Origin: Diprion similis
Lineage: Eukaryota > Arthropoda > Insecta > Hymenoptera > Diprionidae
Length of the DNA stretch: 64,000 bases
Assembly: GCF_021155765.1 (NCBI RefSeq)
Contig: NC_060108.1
Coordinates: 13,365,425 to 13,429,424 of the forward strand
Reading direction: 5' to 3'
This document shows, piece by piece, positions 15,346-48,577 of this stretch. Made by a program: the position numbers and the translations under genes. The notes beneath the pieces were generated by a model, which ran no database searches, had not been told where the DNA came from, and was given only the letters and a program-made list of their open reading frames with translations. Each line of letters starts with the position of its first letter. Positions within the stretch are counted from its first letter, which is position 1.

Positions 15346-16779
15346 ATGCCACTGCACGGAATCAAAGTTATCGAACTAGCCGGACTTGCTCCAGTACCTT
15401 TCTGTGGTATGATACTATCAAATTTTGGGGCATCAGTGGTCAGAGTAGACAGAGTAAGAATTCTAATAAACCATAGTATCCAGACCATGTATTGAAAACA
15501 TGAAAAGTTCAAGAAAGTCGATATCACCTGTAATGAATAAATCATATGCATTTATTATAGGCTTCCAGTGAAGTGTCAGATATTGCTGTTGATTTCTTGG
15601 GCAATGGAAAACGTTCCATAGGACTAAATCTGAAGTCTAAAGAGGGTACTGATATACTGAAAAAGATGTCACAACAAAGCGACGTTATTCTTGATCCATT
15701 CCGACCAGGCATTATGGAAAAACTAGGACTGGGTCCAGACACTCTAACACTAAAAAACAAGAGACTTATCTACGCAAGGCTAAGTGGGTTTGGACAGACT
15801 GGTCCATATGCTAAGATGGCTGGACACGATATAAACTATGTCGGTTTATCAGGTGAGATCATTGCAATTTATCTTCACAGGATTTTGATATTATTCAATA
15901 TATATCGATATAAAATAATGACCAGTAAAGCTCTTTCACAGGTCTGCTTTCTCTCTTTGGGAGACACCATGAGAAACCAACTCCACCTGTAAATCTTACT
16001 GCAGACTTTGGCGGTGGTGGCCTGACCTGTGCTTTTGGCATAGTCCTGGCATTGCTGGAACGAACACGGAGTAACGAGGGTCAAGTAATTGATGTTTCTA
16101 TGGTTGAGGGTTCAGCATACTTGGGGAGCTGGTTATACCGCTCGCAAGGGCTTGATGGGCTATGGGGACAACCCAGAGGAAAAAACTTGTATGAAGAATT
16201 AGGATAGATCATTATTCGAAAGACAAGAAATGTTGATTTGTTATCATATTTTTCATTGGTTACTTCAGGCTAGATGGAGGGGCTCACTTTTATGATACAT
16301 ACGAAACAAAGGATGGACAATTCATGGCTGTCGGTGCCCTCGAGCCCCAATTCTATGCAGTTTTGTTAGAGAAACTTGGTCTTTCAGAAGATGACCTGCC
16401 CCAGTTTGGAGACTTTGAGAAAAGTCGTTCACGGCTGGCACAGATATTCAAGGAAAAGACACAGAAGGAATGGTGCACGGTATTCGAAGGCACAGATGCT
16501 TGTGTTACACCTGTGCTGTCACTAGAATCTGCAACTCTTAATCCACAAAATGTGGCTAGATGCAGTTTTCAGAAATCTGAATCAGGAGACATTATACCAA
16601 ATCCTGCGCCACGGCTGTCGCGGACCCCTGGCTGTGATCGGACTGCCGATAAGCCTAATCCTGCTGCAGGTCAAAATAGCATTGATATTCTACTAGAATA
16701 TGGATTCACGACAGATCAAATACAGAAATATCTTCAACAGCGTGTTATTTATCAAAAAGATGTATCAACTAAACTGTAA
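15346..16779 (+). CDS. Amacr: Alpha-methylacyl-CoA racemase
   Basis: Four exons, 15346-15453, 15561-15852, 15942-16188 and 16269-16779 (stop TAA), give 385 residues against 382 in human AMACR. This family III CoA-transferase-fold enzyme epimerises (2R)- and (2S)-methylacyl-CoA, letting branched-chain fatty acids enter beta-oxidation in peroxisomes and mitochondria. The start [20 protein letters not shown] is typical. The catalytic pair is visible: His125 in AGHDINY and Asp155 in [10 protein letters not shown], with the same 30-residue spacing as human His122/Asp152. Further family motifs are [30 protein letters not shown] and [12 protein letters not shown]. The C-terminus is STKL; the last three residues TKL are a non-canonical peroxisomal signal. 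It is divergent from the DnaJ gene and 724 bp upstream of Nhe on the same strand. Confidence 0.96.
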
Positions 16780-17503: not shown

Positions 17504-20500
17504 ATGGCAGATTCAGCCATGACCGTTCCGTTCGCCGTAGTTGTGACAATCGGTGTATTTTTGTTAAAATCATGCAGTGGAGAAGAGACGGATATAAAGC
17601 TAGACAAAAAAGCTCAATTGCTGCACAGGTTGGACAGCTTGAACTTGTTGTTGTACACGTTTTTACTAATACTGACAGTGTTAACTATATGGACTTTCAA
17701 GCATCGCCGACTGCGCTTCTTGCACGAGACTGGCCTTGCTGTCATCTACGGTGAGTCGTCTGCTATTCCGCTAATGCTCGATTGTTGTTGCTATCTGGCC
17801 AACACCGAATCATGCTTATCGATTTTTTTCGCCCTGACTCTTCCCTAGATACAACCAGACTCACCCCTTTCATCTGCCTCGTTTTTACCTCTCATCTATT
17901 ATTAAACAATCACGTAAGATTGTTTTTGTTTTATCACTCGTCCGCACGTATTTTAAGTCGCATTCGTGCAACGCGCGATAAACACGGCAACCTGTCCACC
18001 CCCCACCCTTCCTCTGTCTAATTTACTTGTCATTTTCAATTTCCCCCTCCCCACGTTCATGACGGTTAAATCAATTTACAACTTGCCAATAAGTCGGTTT
18101 GTATAATTCTCAATGTCGCGCTTCTGTCAATTAGTCATGAATCATGCATGTCCAGTTGTACTATCAATCACACCTGTTCATTGTTACCATTTTCTATTCA
18201 CTAGGTTTTTCATGTCTCTGGTTTTATGAGCTATTACTCGTCGTAGACTTTTACTGTTTCAAACTCTAAATTATTGTTGCTAGATATGAAGAAATTAAAA
18301 AAAATATCCTCCGTGAAGCAATACTTGAAAAATAAACTTATATATCACTTTAACATGTTCGAAGACTTCATCTGGCAATAAAGAGTTTTAGTTAAATTTG
18401 AAAGTCGAAGTTTATAGCATTCTTCCTGCGTTATTTACTCGCCTTAAGACGTGAGAGCCCAAAAGCTTGCACAAAGCTTTGTCACGTGCAACACCAACCA
18501 TGTAACGTTCTCAATATGATCAGCTGATGATAGTACTTTTTGTGCCATTTCAAAGAATTATATCCATGTGTTAGTTTTCGATATGCCGAAGTAATTTTTT
18601 CCATTTCCTGTGACTAGGAAATCATAAATTCAATCTTGTATAAGACATTTAAAAGAAAAGTACATTTCATAGACTGAAGACAAAAATCAGTAACACTAAT
18701 AATGACTTAGATTTCTTGGCACTGATTTTAGTTTATCGATTATCAGTAATTGATAGTAGTTGTATACAGGTGGACAATAGCTTATTGTTCAGATAAATGA
18801 AGGGGTTGTGAGAAGAGTCCAAGTTAATTTTTGGTCTGATTCCAATTGTCAAGACCGCTTACTCATCAGAAAGAAAGGCATCAGCTGTATCAATACAGAT
18901 AATTTTTATACAAGACTTTTTTTGCAAAGATATTTGAGTTTTATTGAAAAAGTTAAAATTGTCAAGAGAAGAAGAAACCATCGTTTAATATGATAAAGAC
19001 CTCTGTCCTGGATACTTTGAGACTATTGACGAAATAAAATTAATGTAAATTGACAACGTGAAACCTTACTTGATTTATTAAAAAAAAGTAATTTATTTAT
19101 TTCCATATAACTATCATAAATAACAAGGCATAATAAGTTTCAAGGACCTTGGACTTTGATTTATATTAGCGGATATTTTCATCGATCTGTAAAGTCAAGT
19201 TTTGCAGAAAATATTGTAAATACGACTATGAGTCTCTGTTACCAATTTTTCAAACATAACTTTATAGTCCTTTAATTACACAGTGTTTTTCTCGTATTCA
19301 ACAGGACTGATTGTGGGGGCGATAATCCGATATGGTTTCACAAATAGCAGTACAATAGTTCACATGCCTGTGGTACCGGAACCTGACGGTAGCCACTATA
19401 ATCAGTCGGTACCACCAGATACATTGTGGTTACGATTTCCGGAAAATAAGGGCGATGGTACAACTAAGAATAAAACTTTTGCCTACTCCTTTCGTGGAGA
19501 AATTTATAAGCGAGACAACGAAATTGACCTCAAGGTAATCAAGCATATTGGAATCAAATAGAATGAAGCAACATGGATGGACATATATCGAATCTTTCTT
19601 AATCAAATTTGCCTAATAAATTCTGCTCTTGTATTTGTCAAGCTTAGTATTTATTACCAACTACAAGGTTGATGTGGTTATTGTTGACTTCAGTAAGCTG
19701 TTTTTCAGAACTGAGTTTTTCATTTTGGTGTTTAATATATTACAGGCTACATTTGATCCAGAAATCTTCTTCAACATTATTCTACCCCCGATTATATTCC
19801 ATGCTGGATACAGTTTAAAGAGGGTGAGTAATTGGCTTTTCAAAATAGCCATTGTGTAAAAGACATTCTTGAAATTCATTCAAGTTCCAACTGAACGACT
19901 TCTTAATCTCATATCCCTGATCAGCAACATTGTCACACCACACAGATACACAGGTATCGTTTTTACCGTCATTATTGTTATAATTGTTTGTCAGTCTTCT
20001 GTGAAGAATTTTCTATTTTTACAGTACAATTTCAAATATTTATCAAACTAAGTCTGAGGGACTGCTGAATCTTATCTCTACCATGATTTTCATATATTTC
20101 CGTACTTTTAAAGTAGATTCTTAATCAGTGAGTCATTCTGTACAAGATAAAAATTAGTCAGTTTCTCAGCTAGATTCCGATTGAAGAAGTTTCATAATTT
20201 TCGAGGAAAAAAGAAAAAAAAATTAGCTGGAGGATAATAAATTTAGAAATTTGTCAGTGAAGTAAATAAATTGTTTTGGCTCGATGAAGAGAAGTGCAAA
20301 TGTTAAGTCACAGCAAGCACTATGATAAGCATTTTTGGTCTAACATATTATAATTCTCAAGATCTTACATTGAAGAAGAAATGTAATCAGGGGAGTTGAG
20401 GAAATTAGAAAAATATTGCATAGTTTTCAAATTGTCTGTAGATGTTACGAGGCCAGAGATCGGTCGGGGAAGAGTGTCAATGTTGATGAGGGAAACTGGG

Positions 20501-21159
20501 GAAAAGTCAGGGATAATTGAAAGCGAAAAGTGAGGGGCCGCCTTGATCTCTCGTTATGTAATTATTAAACATCTTGACTAATCGATTCACTTCATTATTT
20601 ATCGCCTTACGATAACATAATTATTTCCTGCGAACGAATCGAGTAAACATATTTTTCAAGAATACTATCGTGAGTGTTGAACTGTGAACACTTTTGCTCA
20701 TTATCATAATACATTTAGAGCGATAATAACTCAAGAATGTGGAATAAATAGTGAAGAATTCTTGTGATTTCTATTGCTTTTTATAAACTATACAATTTCG
20801 TTTATTTTTCTTATTTATCATATCTGTTTCTTACTTTTCATACTCTGATAGAAGTGTTGTCATTTATTGAAATATTTGCATATTATTTCCAGAAATACTT
20901 CTTCAGAAATCTTGGCGCTATTTTGACGTACGCATTGATAGGAACTACCATATCTTCCTTTGTCATTGGGTGAGTAGCTACAGACTTTAATAATCATACA
21001 TAGTCGTATCGGAATTCCTTGCATAATTTCTTCGGTCCGATAGCAATAAACAAACGCAGCATTATTTGTACCGGACAAGAAAAATCACTATCTCCTTCAG
21101 CCCCATTCTTTCAAACTTTATGCATTATTGGGAGTACTCTCAATGGGTGATAAGTAAAT

Positions 21160-21197
<38 letters not shown>

Positions 21198-24100
21198 ACC
21201 GATTATTGCTATGTCTGCGAATATTCACTGAATCAATCAAAATTTCGGCTTCAAATGCTTCTTTTACATATTTTTATCAATTATAAATACCCAAAAGATC
21301 AAGGCAGTCTGACCATAAAATCTAAAAAGTCGACGCAATTTTATTGAGAGGATCCCCTCGCGACGTGACATTCGAAGTCAGAAAACCAGAAATTCATATT
21401 TGAACCAATCGAAATACGTTAATGAGTCTTTTCTGAATCCTGCAATTGAGAAAACTCTATAGTCCAAACTTCTTGATTCAATTTTTCACAACTCCAGTGT
21501 CCCAGTTTTAACTTGGGGATAATATTTTTTTCGATTTCTCACTATTTTACAACTTGAATTGAATATCAAATGAATCTGTTTTCTCAATCAAATGTTGTTA
21601 GTTTTAAAAGAAATGTTTACTTTAAAAGACACCAGAATATAATATTTAATCCCGATTATAAAATGTTCGGAAAATGCATTAAATACTAGAGAATAATTTT
21701 TGTCATTCTTTTCTACCAACAAGCAGAAAACAATGGTGTTAAATGATTAAATATAATCTAATTTTTCATTTCAGCGCACTTATGTATAGCTTCATACAGC
21801 TGATACCTCATTTAGCTTCATCGTTTACTTTCCTAGACACCTTGTACTTTGGTGCTCTGATCTCGCCAACCGATCCACTGACGATCATTTCCATATTCAA
21901 CGATCTACACGTTGACGTGAATTTATACGCTCTTGTCTTTGGAGAGAGTGTGTTAAACGATGCGGTTGCCATTGTGCTTAGTGGGTAAGAAAATTTGTGC
22001 ACATAAATTTGCATCATAATCAAAGTTATTTGGGATAAGGATTAATGAGGATGAATGCGAATCAGACAACGCAAAATAAAACTTTACTCGAATGCCCGTA
22101 TACTAGGTCTATCCAAAACTACGCTGAACGGTATCAGTCAGGTTCTGGCGGGTTTGAGACTTGGGCATTTTTCCAAGCCCTCGGAGATTTTATTAGAATA
22201 TTCAGCCTCTCGCTGTTCATAGGAGCCACAATGGGCTGCGTTACTGCATTGCTAACTAAGTTCACCCGAGTTAGAGATTTCCCACTGCTGGAATCTGCTC
22301 TCTTCGTCTTGATGTCCTACAGTACTTTTCTCATCGCCGAAGCCTCAGATCTTACAGGTAAGATGAAATTGGAAATAGTAGGTACAGGGTATCAACTGCC
22401 CCGTAAATATCATTAAATTCTGCAATTATACTGGAAAATAAAAATTGTTGCTCAAGCCCTGGAAAAGTCCTGGAATATTTTGATTGATCCTGGAAAAGTT
22501 AACATGATACACTTTTAATTCAAAATTGTGACATTTCGCAATTATAAATTCTCAATTGTAGCAGACGCCCTGTAGGTAATTCATTTTTCCGAGGTTTTAC
22601 TTCTTACATATTATTCTTTTTTGGTTTCCAGGTGTCGTTGCTGTACTATTCTGCGGTATATGCCAAGCCCACTACACCTATAACAACTTGAGTGTCGATT
22701 CGCGACAGCGGACTAAGCAGCTCTTTGAATTGCTTAATTTTTTGGCAGAAAATTTCATTTTCAGCTACATCGGTGTGTCCATGTTCACTTTCCCGAAACA
22801 TCATTTCGATCCAGGTTTCATTTTTGCTGGATTTGTATCCTTTGCAACGTAATTGTATACATTTTTTCTATGTATATGCAGGGAGATTCTTTTTTGAAAA
22901 TTTTCATTTGCCTATTCATTTTTTTGTATATACGGCAGTGTTACAACATTCATGATCATACCTGAATTCTTAAAAAATTTGTTGTTTAAATGATTTCTGG
23001 TAAGCTAGGGGAGAAAATATCTTAAAACACTTGTTGATCCTTGACGGAAACAAATTCTAGTTCTGTGCATTGCTTGGTCGAGCAGTGAATGTTTATCCAT
23101 TATCCTTCCTCTTGAATTTGGGACGTAATCCAAAAATACCATCAAACTATCAGCACATGTTGTTTTGTGCTGGTTTGAGAGGAGCGATGAGCTTTGCTCT
23201 CGCCATTAGAAATACTGTGTCCGATGCTCGTCAAGCTATGTTAACAACAACGAGTCTGATTGTCATTCTAACAGTCATTCTGCAGGGCGGTGCAACCACA
23301 CAGTTTTTAAGCTGGTTCAACATACCGTAAGTCTTACTTTTATCTATTGCATATAGCTTTGAAACCACGATTTTTTTTGTTTTCAGTTCAATGATTAATA
23401 TATGAGTTCTAAACTGCGGTTATTCTTTGTATGTAGATATTCTGACACCACAAACTGATTAGAACACAAATACTAAGAAACGTTAAGTAAAGTTAAGTCT
23501 GAATTGAGGAAATTTTTTTTACAGTGTTGGTGTTGACGAAGAAGTTGAAATATTATCTTACAATGGAGTACGAAGCGTGAGTAATTCATTTATTTATATG
23601 AATTGAAAAATCCGTAACTTGCATACTTTTCATCATTATGTCTGCTTTATTTGGTTTATATCGATCGTTGTTGAACAGAAAGTTTGAAAAAACGACCCTC
23701 GTTTTTTAATTTAAAGTGTGAAGCATTAAACATGAATAATTATTATTATTATTGAAAAAAGACGCTTTTAATTCTGCATAACCATTTCATATCTTTTTTG
23801 TATGTATAACGGACAAGCGCTCACCTCATATCATATATTGCAATAATTTTTCAAACGGTTTTTTCTTCATGTATTCATTATGCTTATCTTCCATTGCTTA
23901 CACGAAGGTATATAATTCCATGGACACCGCGGGGGTGCGTCAAAAATCATTCCTATTATTGTTGTTATTATTTAACTGTCATTATTATTGTTATAATTCT
24001 TATTATCACTGCCATATAATAATTCAAAACAGTTGAAAAAGGCATGCTATCATTTGTGAGACCAGCATTAATGAAATCTTTCAGGGAATATTAAGTTGCA

Positions 24101-26075
24101 TAATTTATATATAATAACTGTTTCTAACTTGTTGAATGACGTTTTTTACTTTGTTGAAGTGGAAATACATTTGAGATCTTTTTTTAAAAAAAATTTTTTT
24201 ATTGATTTGTAAGGTAATTTTTATTATTTATCCTGAAGTTACATTCTAATATCTTTATTCTTTAAATTATTTCTTCATTGTCTGTTTAATTTGATTTTAT
24301 TTTTGTTCCGAAGAAGTTAGCTGCGTGGGATTAGAATAAAACCAACAAGAAAAATCGAAATTAAAATAAACAGCCCGAAAACGATCTAGTTATTTCTATG
24401 CAACCAAATTAAAACTTTTCGTATAATATATAATAATAATATTTTGGAATTTGTTCCAAGTCCCTTACAATCTTTTAAATATTGATAGAAGTCATTTGAA
24501 AATCTTATAGAATCTTTTTCAAAACACCGCTTAAAATCTTTAGATATCGTTCAGAATAAGGGTAATTTGCAGTAGAAAGCTTATAATTAATTGAATGTTA
24601 TCAATACTGCATCGAGGGTAAAGTAACTGCAAGAATATTAAACACGGTGCAATAGGCATACGCCAAATGAGCGCACGTAATAGCTTATTGAATCTAACTA
24701 ACGATTGTAATTGTTACATCCATGGGAAAAAACAAACTGCTTAATATTCACCTGCGTCTATACGAATGTTGATAGTCTGCTGGCGATGGTGGCTTTGGTG
24801 ATCCCGAGAGTCGGCGTGAAAGAAGTCCCACGGTATGTTCCTCATTTTTAAATTTCCAATTTACGTTGCAAAGAAAGTAATTTATTCATCGTACCTCCTC
24901 ATGATATATTGCAACACTATATAACGTCCTTTAATTGCAAGTTAACGTCGACACTGTGCATGGCACTGGAACATCCCGCTTGTAGTAGATATAAATTACA
25001 CAAAGTAAAATGTATATGCGAGTACATACTATTAACAGATTCACGAATGTAATCAAATCTGGCGTTTGTGTGGTTAATCGTTAGGAATGAAATCATTATT
25101 TTCTTGAGAAAGAAGAGTTTCATAAAGTAGATTCTTAAAATACGTGAAGAAATACACGTTACTGCACAGAAAATGAAAATCGTTTTGAAAACTGAAGGTT
25201 GAGGTGAAGATTTAGCATCTGAAATTGGAAATTACTAAACTAATAAATGAAGGAATTGACGGATGGAGATTTCTTAGATTTTGGATGAAACGATTGAAAA
25301 ATAAGAAACGAAATTGTGAAATCCGTGATTAAAATGTTTTGTTTGATTTTTTTTAGTTTTTTTAAATCAGTATTTATTCGTTGCATTTATTTTTCTTAAA
25401 TAACATTCAACACGTTTGAATTTCATGCGTAAGAACAGAAGTTATGGAACAAGCCAAAGTGTGTAAATTGGGGAAATTAAAAAATCTAAACTTGTACGGT
25501 AACAATTCCCCATTTACGGTTTCACAGTACGATTCTATGCAGGGTGGTTCCCTGTCGATGGGTGGAAGTACATCGAAAACAAACGAAAAGGCTCTGCTTG
25601 CAAGAATATGGGGCAATTTCGATACCCATTACATGAAACCATTACTGACACATTCTCGACCAACCCTCCTGGACACTCTACCGGTCTGTTGTGGTCCTTT
25701 GGCCAGGATCTTGACCACCACTCAGCAAATGACACAGGTATGCTTTGCTTCCCTTCGTCTTACCTGTTGTATCTTGATGATATATCGAAGTCTAAATTTC
25801 GTAGTTTATCTTTATTATTTTTTGTTTTGTACAACCCTTCGAGAGATTTGAATTTTGCGCAATTCATACAGGACAATGTGGCACAGAGGGTAGACTCAGA
25901 CTCGGACTTATGCCTGGAGGATCGTGACACTGATAGGCGGAGGACGAGCATTCAGCCGGTGAGTTATCATCAACCTGATCTGAATTATACTAACAACCCG
26001 TGCTACAGTCACAATGGCTCGGCTCCATCGAACTCTGAAGAGCCTTATGTGGTTCTAAATTTCACGCGACAATAG
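17504..26075 (+). CDS. Nhe1: Endosomal/organellar Na+(K+)/H+ exchanger, NHE6/7/9 type
   Basis: Twelve exons: 17504-17750, 19305-19534, 19746-19823, 20893-20969, 21775-21984, 22107-22357, 22632-22834, 23061-23326, 23525-23576, 24776-24832, 25528-25737, 25872-26075. All junctions keep phase, giving 694 residues (vertebrate NHE6/7 are about 670-725). It has an N-terminal signal-like helix (about 1-26), then a membrane helix ([16 protein letters not shown]). The transport domain contains [35 protein letters not shown] (about 266-280, with the ND ion-site pair) and [13 protein letters not shown] (about 470-482), followed by an acidic cytosolic tail. The sequence is much closer to the intracellular NHE6/7/9 group than to plasma-membrane NHEs, so it probably exchanges cytosolic Na+/K+ for endosomal H+. 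Exon 10 (57 nt, [19 protein letters not shown]) is inferred from splice signals and phase only. The last exon contains an internal consensus donor (CCG|GTGAGT at 25958/25959), hinting at alternative ends. Confidence 0.94.
17751..19304 (+). other. Nhe intron 1
   Basis: The largest intron of the gene, from donor TACG|GTGAGT to acceptor TTCAACAG. It is AT-rich with no exon-like or repeat-like segment that I can support. Position next to the first coding exon makes it a plausible place for regulatory elements, but none is visible by eye. Confidence 0.6.
19824..20892 (+). other. Nhe intron 3
   Basis: AT-rich intron between AGG|GTGAGT and TTTCCAG. A purine-rich stretch around 20390-20530 is the only compositional oddity. 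No exon is seen. Confidence 0.6.
20970..21774 (+). other. Nhe intron 4 with a (TC)n microsatellite
   Basis: Intron between GG|GTGAGT and TTTCAG. It carries an uninterrupted TC dinucleotide run at about 21163-21191. A plus-strand open frame through the repeat (serine-leucine rich) is low complexity and not a gene. Confidence 0.7.
21163..21191 (+). repeat. (TC)n microsatellite
   Basis: About 14 perfect TC units within Nhe intron 4. Confidence 0.95.
23577..24775 (+). other. Nhe intron 9
   Basis: AT-rich intron. A short GC-rich patch near 23905-23945 (CCATGGACACCGCGGGGGTGCG) is exon-like in composition but lacks a proper acceptor and donor pair. Otherwise only AT-rich and TTATT-type low-complexity sequence is present. 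Confidence 0.5.
24833..25527 (+). other. Nhe intron 10
   Basis: From donor ACG|GTATGT to acceptor GGTTTCACAG. The frame is open for 84 bases upstream of the acceptor (from 25444), so a longer exon using an upstream acceptor cannot be excluded. No other structure seen. Confidence 0.5.
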
Positions 26076-28430
26076 ACAAATACCAGGGAAAATAGATTTT
26101 TCTCTTGGTACTATTGCGAGAAATTAATTTTAGGTATCGTATCGTTTCGTTGCGAGAAATTGCGAACTCAAAAATCTGTGTATAAAAAAACGCAGAATAA
26201 ATAACTGTAAAACGATATCGTGTATGTATGTTGATTGCATGCACATAAATCTTGTGTAAACAAATATACATACAGGATATGTATCATGTATAAATATGAT
26301 ACTCGCATTGCCAAGAATATGTTATGTGTATCAACCACGTGATTACTACTTAGTAATTACCGTATTATTTACTGTTTTAAATCATATGCTTGGCTTGAAT
26401 CCTTTTTACTTTTGATCTCACTGTTCATATTACATCATTGTTATTTATTAATTTATTTATTTATTTATAACGGCTCAGCTCAACGCTTTTCTATTAATAT
26501 TTCACAATAATTGCTCATTCCGATGTATTATAAACGCATATGTAAAGTATAGATATATACACATATAGAAATTTATTACTAATATATATCGATGTACCTA
26601 AATCGTATGGTGTTTCATCTTCAGAATTCAGTTTTATGGAGATAATGGAAAAACCAATATTTTAAAATAAACGAAAGGTCGATGAAGTTTTTTCAAATCA
26701 AGAAAATTTTGAAGGCCTAACTCAAACAAGAGAGAGCATACAGAGGGATATTGAGCTTTGACAATTAGATGAAAACTTACTCTAGATTCAGAATAGCGAA
26801 AAACTAATGACTGAAAAACTGGTCAATCAAAATTTGCGTAAAATAAACATGTAACTGAATATGCAACAAAAATTGATAATTAGTTTGATTTATTAAAAAT
26901 AAAATTTCAACTTATCGTGCCTGTTATCATAAGCTTGTTTCCAGGCCAATTAACCAGTGAATGGTATTAAACTGATAACGATTAGTTCTTTTTAGATTAG
27001 TATCAAAACTGTATAATTGATTGAATTCAATTAAAAACATTCATTCGAGCGATAGCTATTTACTTTCAAAATCATCGTAGTTTTCACGTTATTACAAAAC
27101 TTCACACGGACCTGTTCGCTGACTTCGAATTACAACACTGTAAAAAATTAAAAACTTTTACTTTTGTGAGATGTACTCATTTATTTTTCTTTGTGATTCT
27201 TATTGTGATTGTTATTATTATCATTATCATCGTTAATTTTTTTTTCCGTTATCTCTGAACAATTTGGTAAATTCTTTTTTTTTAATTGAATAGAATACTT
27301 ACTGGTACAGCTCTCAATTCGTCAAAGGGTTGGACTCCTTACTTCTGTGATGTACCTAAGTCATTATTTTTTTTACATGCTTTGCTAATTGTCTATATAT
27401 ATGCAAATTGATTCTAGAGCTAAAATTTAGGTCGAATGATTAATCGAAAGTATGTAAATATATTATAAATTCGTACTGTGCTAAAGCATTACTCGTTTTA
27501 CCTAGGGGTGGCAGATATTATTGTGATCTCGTGGTTATTAAAGCAAGGTAGTCATAAAACTAGAGATCACTTATGATGGCTTGAAAAATTATTTTTTTTT
27601 CATCATCTAAGAATTAATTAACGGTTCACAGGCAGCTTTCATTTCAAAATGATTTGATGGTCAAACAGGGTTGTAAGATTTTTAAAAAGTACGTTTGATT
27701 CATATCATATAAATATCTCTCGATTGAAGATAACAATTATTGTTAGATATACATGATTAGCAATTCAAAACTCAAATTTAATACATATTGTCAAGATTGC
27801 CTGATGGAAAGAACATCATGTTTCCTCTTAACTCATATTGCTTATGATAGGGATATAACAAGATATGTTTGCTTTTCAGAGACGATTTATATTGGCATTT
27901 GAGATTTGCTTTTTTCATAATCGATCTTACAATCCTGTTATTGTGTTTATTCAAAAGATGATATACTGCGAATGACAAGTCTCTAACAATGCTTGAGCTT
28001 GCAAAGGCGTCTGCGAGTTCTCTACATGAGAATGTGATTCATAAAATATCGGTATATAGGTGGGAAAATAAGTTGGTTGCGTGCTTGAGTTCAATGATAT
28101 GGAAGATGCGTTTTGAAAATTATGTTTAATGAGTAAATAACATGTATAAAGTTGTATGCATACTGCGACTGGTGTAGAATTAACGCATATGAGATCAATG
28201 ACTCATATAATACTCATAATATGATACTCATATATATACAGTCGTATATATATATATATATATATATAAAATTGTACATATAGCTTGGTATATACGTGCG
28301 TATGAAATATTATGGAGAATCTGGGGAATAAATGATAGAAAATATACTTTTCTTTGGGAATCCATTTTTTTTTTTCTAATGCAGAAGACCTATAACCGTT
28401 GAATTTTGGTTTCTAATCAATTTCTTTTAG
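26076..28430 (+). other. Nhe 3' UTR and downstream AT-rich DNA
   Basis: Very AT-rich. The first polyadenylation-type hexamer, AATAAA, is at 26196-26201. Four overlapping ATTTA pentamers (26451-26470) resemble an AU-rich mRNA-stability element, which matters only if the 3' UTR is long. An AT dinucleotide run lies near 28244-28268. No unrelated gene is seen. Confidence 0.5.
26451..26470 (+). promoter_or_regulatory. AU-rich element candidate
   Basis: Four overlapping ATTTA pentamers ending TATAA, about 380 bases beyond the Nhe stop codon. It is a classical mRNA-decay motif if transcribed within the 3' UTR. In DNA this AT-rich it could be chance. Confidence 0.3.
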
Positions 28431-28502
28431 TGGGAAGCTAACGGCGACGTGGATCTTCCTATGCTTGGAATGGAAGGATATATTCCATTGCGAACGTTGT
28501 AA
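28431..28502 (+). CDS. Candidate alternative terminal exon of Nhe
   Basis: A strong acceptor (branch-like CTAAT, TTTCTTTTAG) precedes 23 open codons from WEANGDVDLPMLGMEGY to YIPLRTL, then TAA. The codons are GC-richer than the surroundings. The phase is 0, matching the internal donor at 25958 and the exon 11 donor, both phase 0. The predicted tail would replace the residues after SIQP of the main form. It is not recognised in any known NHE tail and no transcript evidence is available. Confidence 0.35.
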   Translation, partial: WEANGDVDLPMLGMEGYIPLRTL

Positions 28503-28567
28503 AGTGGGATCTGAGCTGATCGAATCTTACACGATAACCATAGACGTAGCATACAAATAACAAAAAC

Positions 28568-28613
28568 GACACCACCAACAACAACAACAACAACAACAAT
28601 AATAATAATAATG
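28568..28613 (+). repeat. (CAA)n/(TAA)n microsatellite
   Basis: Compound trinucleotide run of AAC units followed by AAT units. Confidence 0.9.
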
Positions 28614-29392
28614 AAATTTTGAACTAACACTAACTTATCAAAGACAAAGTTTTACACTGTCAAAACTTGGGAATGAAACGCAGAAATTGAAACCGTGTGA
28701 TAAGCTCCTCCTGTTCCCCCTGCTGCATCTAAAAACTTGAGAGTTTCCTAACTTTGTATATTCTGATTACACATCACGGTGAAAAAGTTCATACACGGTT
28801 TCGGTAGCTAATTTGTTTTACATCATATACAAAATGTATATTTTGCTTACTTGTACTGTAATTGAAACAATCATTTTCTCTAGTCAAATTTTATTTCAGT
28901 ATACAGATTCACCGATTACATATTTATTTATGTAACGTACATTTTTCACTTCTCATGGGAAAAGCATACATACATTGATTTTTTCAGAGATTTAAAGCAA
29001 TTGGCAATTGACTTTTCCCAGTTATACATACTACACAATAGTATTGCGTTAATCACCGCAGCATATAATTTTATTGGGGGATATAATTAGGGTCGAGCAT
29101 TAAACATAATTTTCGAAACAAGTGTGAGTAAATGTATAAATGTTTTAATTATATGTTATTTTATGATAAATTTATTCATAACACCAAAGTTAGGTACTAT
29201 AAATTGGTGTACACATAGTTATGTATAATAGTTACTGCATTCCTATACTAACCAGTACCGCAGTTATTATACTTTTTATATGTATAGTTGACGATGCTTG
29301 AAGAGTATTTTACTTAGAAAAGAATTTTACGAAAGAAAGAAACTAACTGAAGCTAGAATTTAAAAATTGCACTCTGAAGAATTGTTTGCAAG

Positions 29393-29464
29393 AAGTATTT
29401 ACCAAGCATTTTTGCACGCGGCTTGGAGGATCCGACCTCACCTCTGGCCTACAACTTCATGTGA
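29393..29464 (+). CDS. Candidate alternative terminal exon (weak)
   Basis: A short open segment ends GLEDPTSPLAYNFM then TGA (29462-29464). It is GC-rich (CGCGGCTTGGAGGATCCGACC) against an AT-rich background, which suggests selection for coding. The acceptor (TTTGCAAG) is poor. Phase 0 would suit the Nhe donors but the assignment is speculative. Confidence 0.2.
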   Translation, partial: KYLPSIFARGLEDPTSPLAYNFM

Positions 29465-30563
29465 GGTGCTGTCTTTAACCATCAGATGAGAAAACTAAAA
29501 AAATGAAAGAAAAATGAAAAGGTCACGTCGGTTTAGTACAAGGTTTTATTACTCAATTCCTAATGAGCACACCTACACTTTACGAAACTTAAATGCGTGT
29601 CAATGATTGCATTATACCTATACATGCGATAATCGAGGGTATTCGTAATTTAAAAAAACTAATTTTTATACGTGTATGTATACATGTATGTATACATATA
29701 TACAAAATCAGCAGCACGATTCATTTATGTATACATACATTCACACAACAGTATTTGTTACGTACTATAGGGTACAAATGCATTATGTAACGACAGTGTG
29801 CCAACTAGTTATTTAATTTCACTTTTCCCCTCTTGACTTTTTTTTTGTCTTTTTGCTTATTCCTTCCACAAAGCTAGTCACTTGGTATATACTATATAGA
29901 AATTCTATATACGTTTACGTTTGTAAAGACGATATACCTATAACTATACACATACTAACTTAATATAGGGTGGCGTTGTTTGGATTGGTTTGCCTACTAC
30001 CATATCACTTTTATTTTCTAGACATATGCCACTGCGCATACTGTATGTATATGCCTCCTGTTTCTTTTCTTCTTTTCTTTTCTTCCAAAATGCTCTTTGA
30101 TAACATATGTGATCTTGTACTTAGTTGCTATTTTCTTATTTGAAATAATAATAATAATATTAAATGTAATATTATTAGTGATAATATTTTGTAAAACAGT
30201 TGATACGTATTCTAGTCTGCATGAAAGTTGATATATATTTGTGTGTTTCGATGAGCATTTTTGAAAGAAAGTAGTTAGAAAAAAAAAAAGAACAGCGAGA
30301 TATTGATGGAACTTTAAATAAATATATAATTTATAAAACAGAAACATGATGACAATTATTTTTTTGATGAATGACTGTTGAAATTCTTAAGAAAGTTAGC
30401 ACGATTATGCTGTGGCATATTATATTACTTGATCGAATTTAAATTGTCTATAATGATAATAATAATAGTAATAACATTACGATATAATTTTATAGGGTAT
30501 CAAAGAAACTGAATAAATTATAAATCAGATTAATACAAGTCATTCATTTTTCTATCCTGTGTA

Positions 30564-30625
30564 CATATGTATGTATATACATGTAATATATATATATATA
30601 ATATATATGTATGTACATACATATG
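30564..30625. repeat. AT-rich inverted repeat
   Basis: Arms 30564-30582 and 30607-30625 are 19-nt near-perfect reverse complements (18 of 19), separated by an (AT)n core. It is a cruciform-prone simple sequence. Confidence 0.7.
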
Positions 30626-31019
30626 AATTCATCATGCATACTATATCAATATTTTCGTTTTTAATACATATTTGTATACCCGTAAATTACATGCACATTT
30701 TATTATTTTGCTAATAACACAATTAAACTTTTATTATACATGAAATGATGTATTATAGGAAATATCGGGGCAAATCAGGCACCTCGGATAAAATTAAAAA
30801 ATGGGGGCAACACGGGTAGCAGGGTGAGAAATGATATGTTAAGGAAAGTTTTTAAGCCAGATAAAAATTTGAACCTTTCATCATTTCTTCCTTGGTTTAC
30901 CATTTTCAGTCGAGGTATCCATTTTGTCCTGATATCGCCTACATCTAATCTCTCTAAAATTTGCACATATTTCCAATATTTTTTTAACTTCCTTACTTTG
31001 AATTTTTCTTCATTCGCAG

Positions 31020-31061
31020 ACGAGTATTCCAATCAGCCCTGCTAACGGAATACATTTATGA
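31020..31061 (+). CDS. Candidate alternative terminal exon of Nhe
   Basis: An excellent acceptor (TTTTTCTTCATTCGCAG) is followed by 13 open codons, TSIPISPANGIHL, then TGA. Phase 0 fits the Nhe donors. It is too short to judge coding potential; support is the acceptor and phase alone. Confidence 0.2.
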   Translation, partial: TSIPISPANGIHL

Positions 31062-31979
31062 TTCGTCGTTTCAGTTCAGCTCTAATTGCAACAGATAAGT
31101 TATGTTTTACAATTAGTTATAAATTTGATTTGTTTACGTTATTTTTAGTTATCCTATTATCATTATCATTACCATTTTTTACGTGGGATGGATTATACCA
31201 CTAATTCTGACACATTTTTCTCTTGTAAAATCTAAAATTTATATCATATCTACGAATGTACAAGATTTGATACAAAAAAATTTGGTGAGCGAATCATCTG
31301 CAATAGGGAACGAATCGATAAAGAAAAAAATAATATTTAAATGCATATGAAAAAAAAACAGAAGCAACTCAGGCCAATTTATTATCAATGTATAAATAAA
31401 TCTCAATTTTACAACTGACTTTTGGAAGAACGAAAATAGCGCTGAATCAAAATTGCAAAAGAAAATGGGAACCAAAAATGACTGTAAATTCTAATCTCAT
31501 TTACAATTCTGAAGTATGTACCAAAGTGTGCCAGAATACAAACTTGTGGGATAAAATCCACGTATACGGTGTTCCTCAATATTTTCTACTCGGGGGTTTG
31601 GTGTAGAGTTTCCATTATTAGTATAACGTACGTCGTGCACAAAACAAGGTTGAAAGAAAGGAAAAAAAATTGTAGTGTTTAAAAAAATAGGGATGAAAAT
31701 GAAGAAAAATGTTTGATGCGTTATCGTCATCCGATTAATGATGGTGCGTGCACGCATATGTGTTGCAGTATTATTTAAATACCAATTATAAAATAGATAA
31801 TTTACACTGGATAAAAACTGCATATATATAGCTGTAATGCATAAAGCTTAATTCATTGAATTCAACTGTAATTATGATAATGCACTCGCAGTTTGGATTT
31901 GATAGGACCTACTATACATTAATGACATATTGTGTGACACTATTGATGGTTGATGGTTTCAATCGTTTGTGTGGGTCAG

Positions 31980-32069
31980 CTTGGAACTGTGACGGGAGAA
32001 GTTAGTCCGGAGCAACAACCGCTGCATACACGAGTCGCCCTGCCAGGTTTGATCGGCAGACATTTATAA
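31980..32069 (+). CDS. Candidate alternative terminal exon of Nhe
   Basis: The acceptor TTTGTGTGGGTCAG is followed by 29 open codons that begin LGTVTGEVSPEQQPLHTR and end LIGRHL, then TAA. The segment is strikingly GC-rich (GGAGCAACAACCGCTGC, GAGTCGCCCTGCC) within an AT-rich desert. That is the strongest sign in this region that something is under coding constraint. It is phase 0, like the upstream Nhe donors. It could instead belong to an unrecognised separate gene. Confidence 0.35.
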   Translation, partial: LGTVTGEVSPEQQPLHTRVALPGLIGRHL

Positions 32070-34097
32070 ACTATTGTTATTGATAATATTATTATTAGTA
32101 TCGATGGTAATCTCGTGGTTCATGAAAGAAAAAAAGAAAAAAGACAAAAAAAAAAGTTGAAGAAGGAACCACAATTACCGAATCTCATCTTTCTTATACA
32201 TTATACACTGATAAATTATAATAGATGTCATAACGAATTATACGCTCATTGTAGCAATTGTTAGTTTTGATATTCTGAGTCATTTGCGGCCACGTTTGAA
32301 GCTTGTATTCGCCATAGGGAATTCGGATGATTTTTTGAATAACAGAAAGAGTATCGAATTTTTCAGTTTCTTGTATTATTATTTATTTAGTAAGTTAGTC
32401 AATCAAGTTTTGATCAAGTAATAAGTTACAAAGTTGTTTGCACCCGGTTACGCATGTTTCATAAAATCAGTCGATGAAATCAATCAATGATGACGTTTGA
32501 AATAATGCATTTTTCATATTCCTTGATACCGTTGATTGTGTGGAACATTCTTTTTTTTTAATGAATATTGATGCTTTACAGTAATGTACGTACTATAAAT
32601 ATCCTTTCTGTCGCAGAAATCTGTACAAAAAAATCATTCTATTTCCTTACTACTGTATTTGTATTTATCTACGTAAATTATAAATTGTTCACAGTTTCGA
32701 ACGCAATTCACCGTAAGCCGGATAGTTCAAGGAGTAATTTCTAAATCTTATCGCGCTTTTGTCAAATTGTATAGACTATCAGCTGTGAACAGAGTTATAT
32801 ATACATATATATATATATATAGATTTTTTTTCTAGAATATTACGCATCCTTTGTTTGGTGATATGGAGAATTTTTGGCATGTACGCCTCTGGCTTGAAAA
32901 AAACAGGCACAAAATGTATTATAAACACAGTGTATAATTTTTCACGCTGAATTTATTGACCAGTTAATTTATGAATTAAAGAAAAGATTCGATCATTTTC
33001 AGTTTTAGTTTGTAGGAAAGTATGTGTGTCAGTCAAAACTCGAGTCAAATTCATAAGTCAAGGTATTTAGTTACATTCTTTGCGAAAATCGACTGTTCGA
33101 TGGTTATTGAATCTGTCCTGTACTCGTACAATCATGAAATACCTGTAATTAATCGTTGATCGAAATAAGACGTTTGAATTTATGCATCAAAATTATACAA
33201 ACTAAATATATTTTCTTTCGTGAAATGTTTTCTATGCATACCGACTTACAAGCGATTATTATATATATACATATTGTAACGTAGAGATTTAGGATATTTT
33301 AGATGAATCTTTAAACAGATTTCATAACGCATGATTGTTTTAAATTATAAAAAAGTTAGAAAAAAAAACATATTGCGTTCTATATATTTCTATTCAATTA
33401 ATGTATCGACCGCGCGCCAAAGTAAAATTCGAGGATCAATATTGTTAGAATTTATTATATAATTATAGATAAAAAATTTAAGTTTGGGCTGTGATCTCTC
33501 TTTACTCCTTGGAAAATGAAAATGTAAAAAAAAGTATATATACATACGTATAACTTATATTTCTATGAGAAATTTCGAATAATCATCGAATGTAGAAACT
33601 TGTCGCTGCAGTCTTGATGTATATTTTTTTTTTTTGACGTAGAAAAATCAATAAACAAACGCTGTAGGAATCAACTATGAGTCATGTTTGAACCTCTTGT
33701 ATGATCGCATATTTGTGAGCTGAAAAAATATAACCCCGTAAACTTATTATACTCGATGCGATCACCTCCATAAATTCCTCGTATCATTTTTTTTCCACGG
33801 CGATTTAATTTCATTTATTACATATATTGTATTATGAGTTTTCAACAAATTACCGAAAAGACATTGGTCGTACGTGTATCGATATATCTAGTTTCGAATG
33901 CTACGATTGTTTCTCATCCGTGTAATGAATTCTTGATATTCTGATATTCAATTTCATCTGTATTACTACAGGTACTGTTACAATAATGTTGTGATACTAC
34001 ACATACATGATAATTTGTATTACGTACATATATATACATATAGGTATATAATATACACCACTTGATAGTATTTAATAAAGTCTCTGTAAACGATACC
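32070..34097. other. AT-rich intergenic DNA
   Basis: Low-complexity AT-rich sequence with A-runs (about 32127-32155) and TATA-type runs. No exon, RNA gene or recognisable element is seen. Confidence 0.6.
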
Positions 34098-35508
34098 TTA
34101 AATCCCCACGTTTTGCAAAATACTTTCAATAAGTCCCTGAAAAAAGTGTATGATTTTTAGTATTGGTATTCCGTTTCAGGTGCTCTGTCATATTGTGTAT
34201 TTGTAGTGTATGAGTATTTATGCTTATTTGTTCAAAATCTTTATGAAAGTTCATTTCAAAGCAGAAGAAGCATTTCAAGGATGAACCTAGTGTAGATTTT
34301 ACTGTCTCAGAATTTCTGAGTTGGTCGCTCCGCAGTGATTTGAACTCTGTTTCTGCAATCTGTAGGTAATTCAAGAAGTTTCCTTCACTTCCAAAACCAT
34401 TTGAACCCGCCTGCATAGACCGGCGCAAATCGTGACTCAGCAGATTTTTTTTGATTGAACTGTCACCACGCAGCGCTGCGACCTGGATCAGATGGTGGTG
34501 ATTATCTTACAGAGTACTAAAAAACAACACGCTTTGAATAAATGTATGGATCACACGAAGAAAAATTTCTATTCGTGGTTACTACGTAGCCCTTAGCGAT
34601 TTTCATTTTCTACCGTAATAGAACATATACTTGTGCGTATTAAATGAAATTAATGACGCGGGTAGATGAGTTACGGTGGAAATGGATGAAATACCGTTGA
34701 ACTATGAGAATAAAGAACCGAAAGAATATAGAATTCACTTATATCAAAAACAAGCGATTCCAATTCTTTTTTACCTCGCAGTATCAGGAAGTTGTATTAG
34801 GAATTCCTATCGAGCAGAAGCCGCCGCCAAGGAAGAAATAAGCTTGCGGCAGCGTGTATTTTGAATGAAAAAGTAAGGGAGTGGTATGGTATATTGGTAT
34901 GCTTCGTAGCGAGGTTAGGTTCTCGGTGAAAAAAAAAAAAGGAAAAATCGGAAATTGAATTTCCAGTTGAAAATGTGACGTAAATACGAAACTCATTGGG
35001 TTCCGCTTTATCGTTGAACGAGCAAGCACACTTGGGGAGGCTACTACTCACTCCCGTCGTACCTCACCTCACACATCCGTCGCAATTTAAACTTTCCGCA
35101 ATTCAAGTGGCACGAGAATGCTGTACTGGAATACGTGGAAGCCCCTTGAATTTATACGGTCTTATATAGTGTAATACAATCGTAACTAGAACCCAGTAGG
35201 TACATGGTTAATTAACAACTATTTTCACTGAACTTTGACGCGTGACGCACTACAACTGTTGAAGCAATACCCGCATAAGTTATTTGACAAACAATATAGG
35301 TACTGGTAGCAAAATACTTTCCGAATACACAGGCTGTCGTTGATTCATAAAATCGGTTTTAAAGGTTCGTCGACTTATTGTTTTTTTTTTTTTTAATATT
35401 CTCACCACCCTTCACGGGCTTACAGAAATTTTTGATATGGTAATAGTTCATTCTGGTAGTGCCATAGATTCTCACCCTTCCTGACCTATCAGAGAGTTTG
35501 AAACTCAT
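34098..35508 (-). CDS. Possible small unrecognised gene (3 exons)
   Basis: Three minus-strand pieces join in phase 0. Exon 1 is 35508-35476 (ATG, MSFKLSDRSGR, donor GTGAGA). Exon 2 is 34482-34303, starting VAALRGDSSIKKNLL and ending LRSDQLRNSET, donor GTAAAA. Exon 3 is 34136-34098, acceptor TTTTTTCAG, GLIESILQNVGI then TAA. The predicted product is about 83 residues, polar and helical, with no signal peptide or cysteine motif. Exon 2 has clear coding character compared with its surroundings. The exon 2 acceptor (CTGATCCAG) is weak, and the link from exon 1 to exon 2 is the least certain; further exons may lie between. I do not recognise the family. It is convergent with Nhe. Confidence 0.35.
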
Positions 35509-37480: not shown

Positions 37481-38560
37481 AACTATTTTGATTGAAACTG
37501 CTCAGTCCCAATACGCTGCGAGCAACGTATCAAGAGTTACAGCCGGAAAACGAAACGTTCGTTTTGAGGTTTTCCTACTGCTGGTCTTTCCGTCGTAATT
37601 TCTCTGCTGTTGGTCCGAAGCTTTTTTTCTTGTGTTTTCTGAGTTCCTGGGCGTCCAATTAATCTAGGTAGGGTCATACAAATGAATTCGGAGGCCAGAA
37701 ATTTTCGGCTCCAAAAATCGCGAAAAAAAGTAAGGCTAACCCCTTTGGATTTTTGGCGAAAATTTCGACGACTTTGAAAAGTGCTGCAATCAATTCTTTA
37801 GGGCACTATTCCGACGTAATTTTGCGAGAAAAATCGATTGAGCGCAGTCCCAATACGCTGCGAGCAACGGATCAAAAGTTACAGCCAAAAAACTACAGAT
37901 TTCCATCGTCATTTCTCTGCTGTCATTCCTACGCTGTTTTTAATGTGTTTTTTGAGTTCCTGGGGTTCCAATTAGCCAAGAAACGGTCATACAAATCAAT
38001 TCGGAGACCAGAAATTTTCGGCCTCAAAAATCGCAAAAAAAGTAAGGCTAACCCCTTTGGATTTTTGGCAAAAATTTCGACGACTTTGAAAAGTGCTGCA
38101 ATTGATTCTTTAGAGCACTATTCCGACGTAATTTTGCGAGAGAAATCGATTGAGCGCAGTCCCAATACGCTGCGAGCAACGTATCAAAAGTTACAGCCAA
38201 AAAACTGCAGATTTTTGTCGTCATTTCTCTGCTGTTGGTCCTACGCTGTTTTCAATGTGTTTTTTGAGTTCCTATGGTTCCAATTAGCCAAGAAACGGTC
38301 ATACAAATCAATTCGGAGACCAGAAATTTTCGGCTCCAAAAATCGCAAAAAAAGTAAGGCTAACCCCTTTGGATTTTTGGCGAAAATTTCGACCATTCTG
38401 GAAAGTGCTGCAATAAATTCTTTCAGGCACTATTCCGACGTAATTTTGCGAGAGAAATCGATTGAGCGCAGTCCGAATGCGCTGCGAGCAACGGATCAAA
38501 AGTTACAGCCAAAAAACGGAAGTCATGTTTTTTCCATTTTTCAGCTGATGGTCTGTGCAC
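37480..38560 (+). repeat. 312-bp satellite array 1
   Basis: About three and a half units; the reference phrase GGATTTTTGGC recurs at 37749, 38061 and 38373, exactly 312 bp apart. The first unit (from about 37500) is diverged. Because 312 is divisible by three, a plus-strand frame stays open over 37753-38565 (270 codons) with a 104-residue repeat containing REKSIERSPNTLRATDQKLQ. The frame has no recognisable domain and is likely a by-product of the period. Confidence 0.93.
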
Positions 38561-39513: not shown

Positions 39514-42500
39514 CACGTAAAATTAGGCAAATCGAAGAAATTTCAGCGAAAAATTACTCCTGGTATCAGGAGAACATCTGAGCCGAGGAGGTCTTCCAAA
39601 AACAGGGACTGCTTGATTGACTGCTTGCGACGTTGATACTGTGTGCTTTGATGCATGCCTGCTTGCTTGAGAAGGCATGTGATCGCTTGCTTACATGCTA
39701 CATCCGCTTAGAATTAAGCAAATCGGAGAAATTTCAGCGAAAAATTACTCCTGGTATCAGGAGAACATCTGAGCCGAGGAGCTCTTCCAAAAACAGGGAC
39801 TGATTGATTGACTGCTTGCGACGTTGATACTGTGTGCTTTGATGCATGCCTGCTTGCTTGAGAAGGCATGTGATCGCTTGCTTACGTGCTACATCCGCTT
39901 AGAATTAGTCAAATCGGAGAAATTTCAGCGAAAAATTACTCCTGGTATCAGGAGAACATCTGAGCCGAGGAGCTCTTCCAAAAACAGGGACTGATTGATT
40001 GACTGCTTGCGACGTTGATACTGTGTGCTTTGATGCATGCCTGCTTGCTTGAGAAGGCATGTGATCGCTTGCTTACGTGCTACATCCGCTTAGAATTAGT
40101 CAAATCGGAGAAATTTCAGCGAAAAATTACTCCTGGTATCAGGAGAACATCTGAGCCGAGGAGCTCTTCCAAAAACAGGGACTGATTGATTGACTGCTTG
40201 CGACGTTGATACTGTGTGCTTTGATGCATGCCTGCTTGCTTGAGAAGGCATGTGATCGCTTGCTTACATGCTACATCCGCTTAGAATTAAGCAAATCGGA
40301 GAAATTTCAGCGAAAAATTACTCCTGGTATCAGGAGAACATCTGAGCCGAGGAGCTCTTCCAAAAACAGGGACTGATTGATTGACTGCTTGCGACGTTGA
40401 TACTGTGTGCTTTGATGCATGCCTGCTTGCTTGAGAAGGCATGTGATCGCTTGCTTACGTGCTACATCCGCTTAGAATTAGTCAAATCGGAGAAATTTCA
40501 GCGAAAAATTACTCCTGGTATCAGGAGAACATCTGAGCCGAGGAGCTCTTCCAAAAACAGGGACTGATTGATTGACTGCTTGCGACGTTGATACTGTGTG
40601 CTTTGATGCATGCCTGCTTGCTTGAGAAGGCATGTGATCGCTTGCTTACATGCTACATCCGCTTAGAATTAAGCAAATCGGAGAAATTTCAGCGAAAAAT
40701 TACTCCTGGTATCAGGAGAACATCTGAGCCGAGGAGCTCTTCCAAAAACAGGGACTGATTGATTGACTGCTTGCGACGTTGATACTGTGTGCTTTGATGC
40801 ATGCCTGCTTGCTTGAGAAGGCATGTGATCGCTTGCTTACGTGCTACATCCGCTTAGAATTAGTCAAATCGGAGAAATTTCAGCGAAAAATTACTCCTGG
40901 TATCAGGAGAACATCTGAGCCGAGGAGCTCTTCCAAAAACAGGGACTGATTGATTGACTGCTTGCGACGTTGATACTGTGTGCTTTGATGCATGCCTGCT
41001 TGCTTGAGAAGGCATGTGATCGCTTGCTTACATGCTACATCCGCTTAGAATTAAGCAAATCGGAGAAATTTCAGCGAAAAATTACTCCTGGTATCAGGAG
41101 AACATCTGAGCCGAGGAGCTCTTCCAAAAACGGGGACTGATTGATTGACTGCTTGCGACGTTGATACTGTGTGCTTTGATGCATGCCTGCTTGCTTGAGA
41201 AGGCATGTGATCGCTTGCTTACGTGCTACATCCGCTTAGAATTAGTCAAATCGGAGAAATTTCAGCGAAAAATTACTCCTAGTATCAGGAGAACATCTGA
41301 GCCGAGGAGCTCTTCCAAAAACAGGGACTGATTGATTGACTGCTTGCGACGTTGATACTGTGTGCTTTGATGCATGCCTGCTTGCTTGAGAAGGCATGTG
41401 ATCGCTTGCTTACATGCTACATCCGCTTAGAATTTAGCAAATCGGAGAAATTTCAGCGAAAAATTACTCCTGGTATCAGGAGAACATCTGAGCCGAGGAG
41501 CTCTTCCAAAAACAGGGACTGATTGATTGACTGCTTGCGACGTTGATACTGTGTGCTTTGATGCATGCCTGCTTGCTTGAGAAGGCATGTGATCGCTTGC
41601 TTACGTGCTACATCCGCTTAGAATTAGTCAAATCGGAGAAATTTCAGCGAAAAATTACTCCTGGTATCAGGAGAACATCTGAGCCGAGGAGCTCTTCCAA
41701 AAACAGGGACTGATTGATTGACTGCTTGCGACGTTGATACTGTGTGCTTTGATGCATGCCTGCTTGCTTGAGAAGGCATGTGATCGCTTGCTTACGTGCT
41801 ACATCCGCTTAGAATTAGTCAAATCGGAGAAATTTCAGCGAAAAATTACTCCTGGTATCAGGAGAACATCTGAGCCGAGGAGCTCTTCCAAAAACAGGGA
41901 CTGATTGATTGACTGCTTGCGACGTTGATACTGTGTGCTTTGATGCATGCCTGCTTGCTTGAGAAGGCATGTGATCGCTTGCTTACGTGCTACATCCGCT
42001 TAGAATTAGTCAAATCGGAGAAATTTCAGCGAAAAATTACTCCTGGTATCAGGAGAACATCTGAGCCGAGGAGCTCTTCCAAAAACAGGGACTGATTGAT
42101 TGACTGCTTGCGACGTTGATACTGTGTGCTTTGATGCATGCCTGCTTGCTTGAGAAGGCATGTGATCGCTTGCTTACGTGCTACATCCGCTTAGAATTAG
42201 TCAAATCGGAGAAATTTCAGCGAAAAATTACTCCTGGTATCAGGAGAACATCTGAGACGAGGAGCTCTTCCAAAAACAGGGACTGATTGATTGATTGCTT
42301 GCGACGTTGATACTGTGTGCTTTGATGCATGCCTGCTTGCTTGAGAAGGCATGTGATCGCTTGCTTACGTGCTACATCCGCTTAGAATTAGTCAAATCGG
42401 AGAAATTTCAGCGAAAAATTACTCCTGGTATCAGGAGAACATCTGAGCCGAGGAGCTCTTCCAAAAACAGGGACTGATTGATTGACTGCTTGCGACGTTG

Positions 42501-48500: not shown

Positions 48501-48577
48501 TAGCGAATCGGAGAAAGTTCAGCCGAAAATTGCTCCTGGTATCAGGAGAACAGCTGAGCCGAGGAGGTCTTTTAACT
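39514..48577 (+). repeat. 191-bp satellite array, about 47 copies
   Basis: Head-to-tail units of exactly 191 bp (for example ATGCATGCC at 39651, 39842 and 40033). Units differ by very few bases. Diagnostic variants are ACATGC/ACGTGC, AATTAAGC/AATTAGTC/AATTTAGC, GAGCCGAGG/GAGACGAGG and GGAGGTC/GGAGCTC. The GGAGGTC variant occurs at 39591, 45512 and 47040, spaced 31 and 8 units exactly. The last 8 kb-end units repeat as an 8-mer (1528 bp). Each unit has two dyads, CTCCTG-gtat-CAGGAG and CATGCCT-(12 nt)-AGGCATG. Short open frames of 60-64 codons inside are incidental. Nothing coding. Confidence 0.98.

Follow-up and report, generated by a model that had tools for sequence, protein, structure and literature searches.

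The closest described relatives of the gene considered here are the mammalian endosomal Na+/H+ exchangers NHE6 and NHE9 (SLC9A6 and SLC9A9). The accessible part of one report describes binding of the NHE6 cytoplasmic tail to GGA1, the loss of which moves NHE6 from endosomes to lysosomes, the Golgi and the cell surface, and gives NHE6.2 and NHE6.1 a C terminus in common (PMC11375261). In the available portion of another, 32 residues outside the C terminus distinguish the two NHE6 variants that were studied as proteins (PMC9081726). Drosophila Nhe3 (CG11328), whose human orthologue is SLC9A7, is one of 19 fly genes listed as having a putative U12-type intron in the accessible text of PMC2952598, and is named among the differentially spliced transcripts of fly clock neurons in that of PMC6025963, where the spliced part is unspecified. 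A search for alternative tails of insect NHE6/7/9 returned no recognised report among the matches listed, subscription literature lying mostly outside that search. In composite terminal exons, a last exon carries both an internal donor and its own polyadenylation (poly(A)) signal and is paired with a distal alternative last exon. Here, we describe an exchanger gene of the NHE6/7/9 type in 64,000 nucleotides of the Diprion similis genome (NC_060108.1, positions 13,365,425 to 13,429,424 of the forward strand; the whole stretch is referred to as the window), the last exon of which may belong to this class.

The exchanger gene and its last exon

Based on the signals in its last exon and on the DNA downstream of it, the balance tips slightly toward a composite terminal exon and one or more alternative tails further downstream, 28431 being one of them. 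By default, cleavage would follow the AATAAA at 26196, leaving the exchanger with the 38-residue tail encoded by 25959–26075. Alternatively, with transcription passing the proximal poly(A) site, splicing from the internal GTGAGT (25959) or from the donor of exon 11 (25738) would lead in frame into a distal last exon, 28431–28502 being the most probable, by which a 23-residue tail is substituted; 31980–32069 is a possible further distal choice. We infer both the splicing from 25959 and its competition with cleavage after 26196. Since the transporter core would be unchanged, the effect would fall on the cytosolic tail, and sorting or trafficking might be altered. A first-pass annotation of this DNA had proposed that the gene swaps its tail among four alternative C-terminal segments; the gene identity and the possibility of swapping stand, whereas the set of four is not supported.

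The gene comprises 12 exons on the plus strand (17504–26075), with a single open frame across the joined exons. Its product matches the Pfam domain Na_H_Exchanger (PF00999, E-value 1.2e-66) over residues 57–517 and, among solved structures, NHE6 (4.6e-188) and NHE9 (2.9e-166), with NHE1 at best at 2.9e-44. Judged by sequence, it is an NHE6/7/9-type exchanger, nearer to NHE6/9 than to the plasma membrane NHEs. Exchanger-domain matches in the 269 Mb assembly amount to 11 rows; two are the window gene, and the others are divided between C2 and two further places on C4. The junction phases are 1,0,0,2,2,1,0,2,0,0,0; thus, exons 11 and 12 (25737 and 25872) meet in phase 0. Phase 0 is found at the last three junctions and at the donor at 25959, with all three phases represented among the upstream introns, a pattern that counts in favour of a tail swap. 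The phase-0 donors at 25738 and 25959 could both, by their frame, feed a downstream exon.

Exon 12 is, by its signals, a complete last exon, having a stop and, some 120 bp beyond it, an AATAAA that marks a probable proximal poly(A) site; therefore, any downstream segments would be alternatives. Upstream of the internal donor, it can be aligned with human NHE6 through the DSDL stretch. The donor itself, CCG/GTGAGT at 25958/25959 in phase 0, lies exactly where it had been proposed and resembles the exchanger's own donors. The window holds 12 copies of GTGAGT on the plus strand and six on the minus strand; seven of the 12 fall inside the gene (17.5–26.1 kb), comprising four modelled donors, two intronic copies and the one at 25959. 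With four of the six other in-gene copies being modelled donors, GTGAGT can fairly be regarded as a donor word of some specificity here. The read-through part, 25959–26075, reaches a coding score of only 2.1 bits (P 0.057), and for this reason the reverse arrangement, in which the sequence beyond the donor is a retained intron and the main tail is a distal one, may also be entertained.

Coding-like content in the downstream desert

Candidate exons in the desert downstream (26100–34000) were scored with an acceptor matrix built from 13 own acceptors plus a typed generic prior, so that own sites are high by construction: 12 of the 13 score 8.1–13.2 and exon 10, the lowest, 3.2, while the exon 8 acceptor, excluded from the matrix as U12-like, scores −2.2. 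The coding score compares codon frequencies from four coding pieces (three window genes) with those of introns and of the desert minus the candidate segments. All four segments of the first-pass annotation, at 28431, 29393, 31020 and 31980, do open in phase 0 and stop after 13–29 codons (23, 23, 13 and 29, respectively). Their acceptors had been rated as three good and one weaker; on the matrix, 31020 is good (7.9) and 28431 fair (6.0), whereas 31980 is only moderate and 29393 not credible, given scores of 4.1 and −0.5. Two segments had been singled out as richer in guanine and cytosine (GC) than their surroundings, and these indeed are, but so is a third (28431, 0.46; 29393, 0.49; 31980, 0.52), with 31020 at 0.41 and the 200-base flanks at 0.25–0.34.

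The argument that four phase-0 segments are not expected by chance fails. Fifty-seven AG dinucleotides in the desert score at least 4 as acceptors, and 17 of them open for 13–29 codons, compared with 16.2 (standard deviation 4.2) under an order-3 Markov null; the number and phase of the openings are thus no evidence. The argument from GC content, on the other hand, holds better than had been claimed, since the three GC islands that stand out most in the desert, found regardless of frame (31964–32061, 29414–29473 and 28430–28550), overlap 31980, 29393 and 28431. Island edges fit the proposed exons partly, and only 28430–28550 begins at its proposed acceptor. When acceptor and codon scores are combined, 31980 ranks first among 324 desert AGs, 28431 second, 31020 eighth and 29393 fifteenth. 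Two of the 57 AGs with an acceptor score of at least 4 reach 11 bits, and none does in 400 order-3 Markov deserts. Any excess over chance therefore resides in coding-like content, not in the number of openings.

The best of the proposed tails, and by its sequence a fair candidate with a fair acceptor, is the segment at 28431. Its coding score is 11.4 bits in frame 0, the remaining five frames giving 0.0 to 4.4, and its codon usage exceeds that of base-matched shuffles at an uncorrected P of 0.0024–0.0027. The island starts at the acceptor, with GC content going from 0.25 to 0.46, and extends 48 bp beyond the stop. The donor at 25959 and this acceptor are phase-compatible, both being in phase 0. 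A query joining exon 11, the start of exon 12 and the 28431 tail gave three genome matches among the best candidates scored, all of them pieces of the exchanger gene. The segment at 31980 appears to be a weaker candidate, with an acceptor that is only moderate and a competing minus-strand reading: its other frames reach up to 10.5 bits, its uncorrected P is 0.017–0.020, and its island starts 16 bp ahead of the acceptor.

Segment 29393, which lacks a credible acceptor, scores 7.7 bits compared with 9.6 in one minus-strand frame that has a stop (uncorrected shuffle P 0.033–0.035), and its island starts 21 bp after the proposed exon does. Segment 31020 has a good acceptor and no coding signal beyond chance (P 0.12–0.13). 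A fourth GC island, 30766–30828, has no coding-like reading by codon score; an 88-codon open frame that begins in it (30779–31045) scores −11.0 bits. By genome search, the three GC islands are not repeats: those at 28431, 29393 and 31980 each match themselves alone in the assembly, in searches that score best candidates only, and repeats or retrocopies were rejected as their source. A branch-point filter passed only 28431 and 31075 of 321 AGs; as the word CTAAY occurs with just one of the 13 own acceptors, the filter carries no weight. The feature coordinates are collected below.

Table 1. Coordinates of the exchanger gene and of candidate features downstream of it; positions are those of the window.
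Feature	Position	Strand	Sequence or product	Basis or remark
Exons 1–11, endosomal-type Na+/H+ exchanger gene	17504-17750, 19305-19534, 19746-19823, 20893-20969, 21775-21984, 22107-22357, 22632-22834, 23061-23326, 23525-23576, 24776-24832, 25528-25737	+		stop-free joined translation, Pfam, structure match
Exon 10 (57 bp)	24776-24832	+		both junctions in phase 0; reading frame open whether it is included or skipped
Exon 12 as default last exon (full-length form)	25872-26075	+	38-residue tail	stop at 26073-26075
Internal donor, candidate alternative 5' splice site	25959-25964	+	GTGAGT	preceded by CCG; phase 0
Probable proximal poly(A) site	26196-26201	+	AATAAA	followed by GT-rich TGTATGTATGTTG
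Best candidate alternative tail	28431-28502	+	WEANGDVDLPMLGMEGYIPLRTL then stop	acceptor 6.0, codon score, GC island
Weaker proposed segment	29393-29464	+	KYLPSIFARGLEDPTSPLAYNFM then stop	GC island without credible acceptor
Proposed segment	31020-31061	+	TSIPISPANGIHL then stop	acceptor 7.9, 1.2 bits
Second candidate tail	31980-32069	+	LGTVTGEVSPEQQPLHTRVALPGLIGRHL then stop	14.6 bits, acceptor 4.1

Competing explanations

The gene may simply end at exon 12, the GTGAGT being unspliced coding sequence (VS) and the downstream segments chance openings behind AGs, an explanation that we consider doubtful, though of appreciable weight. It is favoured by the stop and poly(A) signal of exon 12, by a count of acceptor-plus-short-frame segments equal to chance, by P values that are modest and uncorrected, and by the counts in other noncoding DNA given below. 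It leaves unexplained the overlap of the three strongest GC islands with three of the segments, the coding scores of 28431 and 31980, which stand above all 400 simulated deserts, and the infrequency of GTGAGT on the plus strand. Real DNA was used as a further control, in 19 readable stretches of 10 kb from the same chromosome, searched on both strands for segments with an acceptor of at least 4 and at least 11 bits. Tiles with GC content of at most 0.35 held no such segment in 58 kb of strand (1-kb tiles) and one in 48 kb (2-kb tiles), so that 0 to 0.17 would be expected per desert length; at GC of at most 0.38, seven in 126 kb and nine in 104 kb correspond to 0.45 and 0.70 per desert length, and the latter figures favour an end at exon 12, those at 0.35 a distal tail. 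Whole control stretches with GC of at most 0.36 gave 1.5 segments per 10 kb of strand (six strand-stretches), a figure that presumably includes real exons.

Several points weigh against the distal tail. With limits of 3 for the acceptor and 10 bits for the coding score, 2 segments are seen where the remaining noncoding DNA of the window (47 kb of strand, including the desert minus strand) predicts 0.51; with limits of 3 and 6 bits, 3 were seen and 2.06 expected, and with 6 and 8 bits, 0 and 0.34. The one such segment on the desert minus strand lies in island 31964–32061. The noncoding model omits the candidate segments, which introduces a slight bias in their favour; the score limits were chosen once the candidates were known; and the shuffle P values are uncorrected for the choice of AGs or islands. 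The coding score is itself weak at the length of a tail, because the default read-through tail obtains so little. Behind the stop of 28431, the next AATAAA follows at 30317 (1.8 kb) and an ATTAAA at 29099 (about 0.6 kb); behind that of 31980, they stand at 33650 (1.6 kb) and 32975 (about 0.9 kb). In local alignment, none of the five tails matches the human NHE6 tail better than shuffles do: of 4000 shuffles, 691 reached the score of the read-through tail, 425 that of 28431, 2097 that of 29393, 3644 that of 31020 and 1038 that of 31980, and some of 310 control desert open reading frames score higher (28 versus 25 and 24). A homology search of two contig collections for insect relatives found none: exon 11 gave 89 pattern matches in the genome contigs and 12 in the viral ones, and exon 7 gave 51 and 14, respectively. 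The word E-x-Y-[IV]-x-L, which is YxxPhi-like and common to the read-through and 28431 tails, was set aside as evidence, since 728 of 4000 shuffles equal it.

It is quite unlikely that the GC islands instead represent exons of unrelated or minus-strand transcripts, or else conserved non-coding sequence within a long 3' untranslated region or intergenic DNA. In favour of this, the minus strand of 31964–32061 is open for 26 codons (32039–31959) behind an acceptor of 7.0, better than the 4.1 of 31980, with 11.1 bits and a P of 0.063. Island 29414–29473 does not start behind a credible plus-strand acceptor; on the minus strand it has one of 8.4, where the reading reaches only 2.9 bits. The fourth island has no coding-like reading, and the plus strand of 28400–28540 is somewhat more stably folded than its shuffles (z −1.96; 6 of 200). 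Against this, the remaining four island folds have z values from −1.01 to +0.98, the window contains no Rfam match at the gathering score and no transfer RNA, and no minus-strand reading is listed behind an AG near the edge of the 28431 island. A non-coding RNA origin gains nothing from 12 sub-threshold microRNA-like matches in 25500–34500, all of which lie in TA-rich repeats outside the islands. At the opposite extreme, a larger system of three or more interchangeable tails (exon 12, 28431, 31980 and perhaps 29393) over 6 kb, with the internal donor competing against the proximal poly(A) site to give tissue-specific endosomal targeting, appears unlikely.

Other features of the locus and comparison with known systems

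Within the gene, exon 10 is a candidate cassette: because both of its junctions are in phase 0, its skipping would preserve the frame. Between exons 9 and 10, a possible 27-nt phase-0 microexon (23908–23934, VYNSMDTAG) precedes GTGCGT and resembles the start of exon 11 (YDSMQGG); its acceptor, which ends in AAG, is weak, and a coding test with coordinates six bases off gave no clear signal (P 0.35). Intron 7 (22835–23060) begins GTATCCTT and carries TCCTTGAC ahead of its acceptor, which we take to fit the U12-type consensus; the intron thus looks U12-type.

Neighbouring the exchanger gene are a DnaJ protein with DnaJ and DnaJ_C domains (12527–14171, minus strand) and a CoA-transferase family III gene (15346–16779, plus strand), presumably an alpha-methylacyl-CoA racemase. 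Further upstream lies a DUF229 gene that is weakly sulfatase-like (9427–10998, E-value 1e-139). Downstream of the desert, a tandem array at 39521–48571 consists of 47.4 copies of a 191-bp unit (98% matches), and two arrays of 312-bp period (37587–38517, 3.0 copies; 49584–54069, 14.4 copies) have similar translated repeats. As 312 is a multiple of three, the latter keep long open frames (up to 551 aa); these have only scattered weak Pfam matches and are probably not a gene.

If the tail swap is real, the function of the exchanger tail could be studied through natural isoforms with the same transporter core; if the downstream signals are due to chance, exon 12 is an ordinary last exon. Compared with mammalian NHE6 and NHE9, the window gene is alike in the transporter core and the proximal cytosolic tail (for NHE6, through DSDL), whereas its distal tails resemble the human NHE6 tail no more than shuffled sequences do. 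Its U12-like intron 7 recalls the putative U12-type intron in the accessible account of Drosophila Nhe3, a likeness of type. Exon 12 is alike to composite terminal exons in having an internal donor, here a candidate only, together with its own poly(A) signal.

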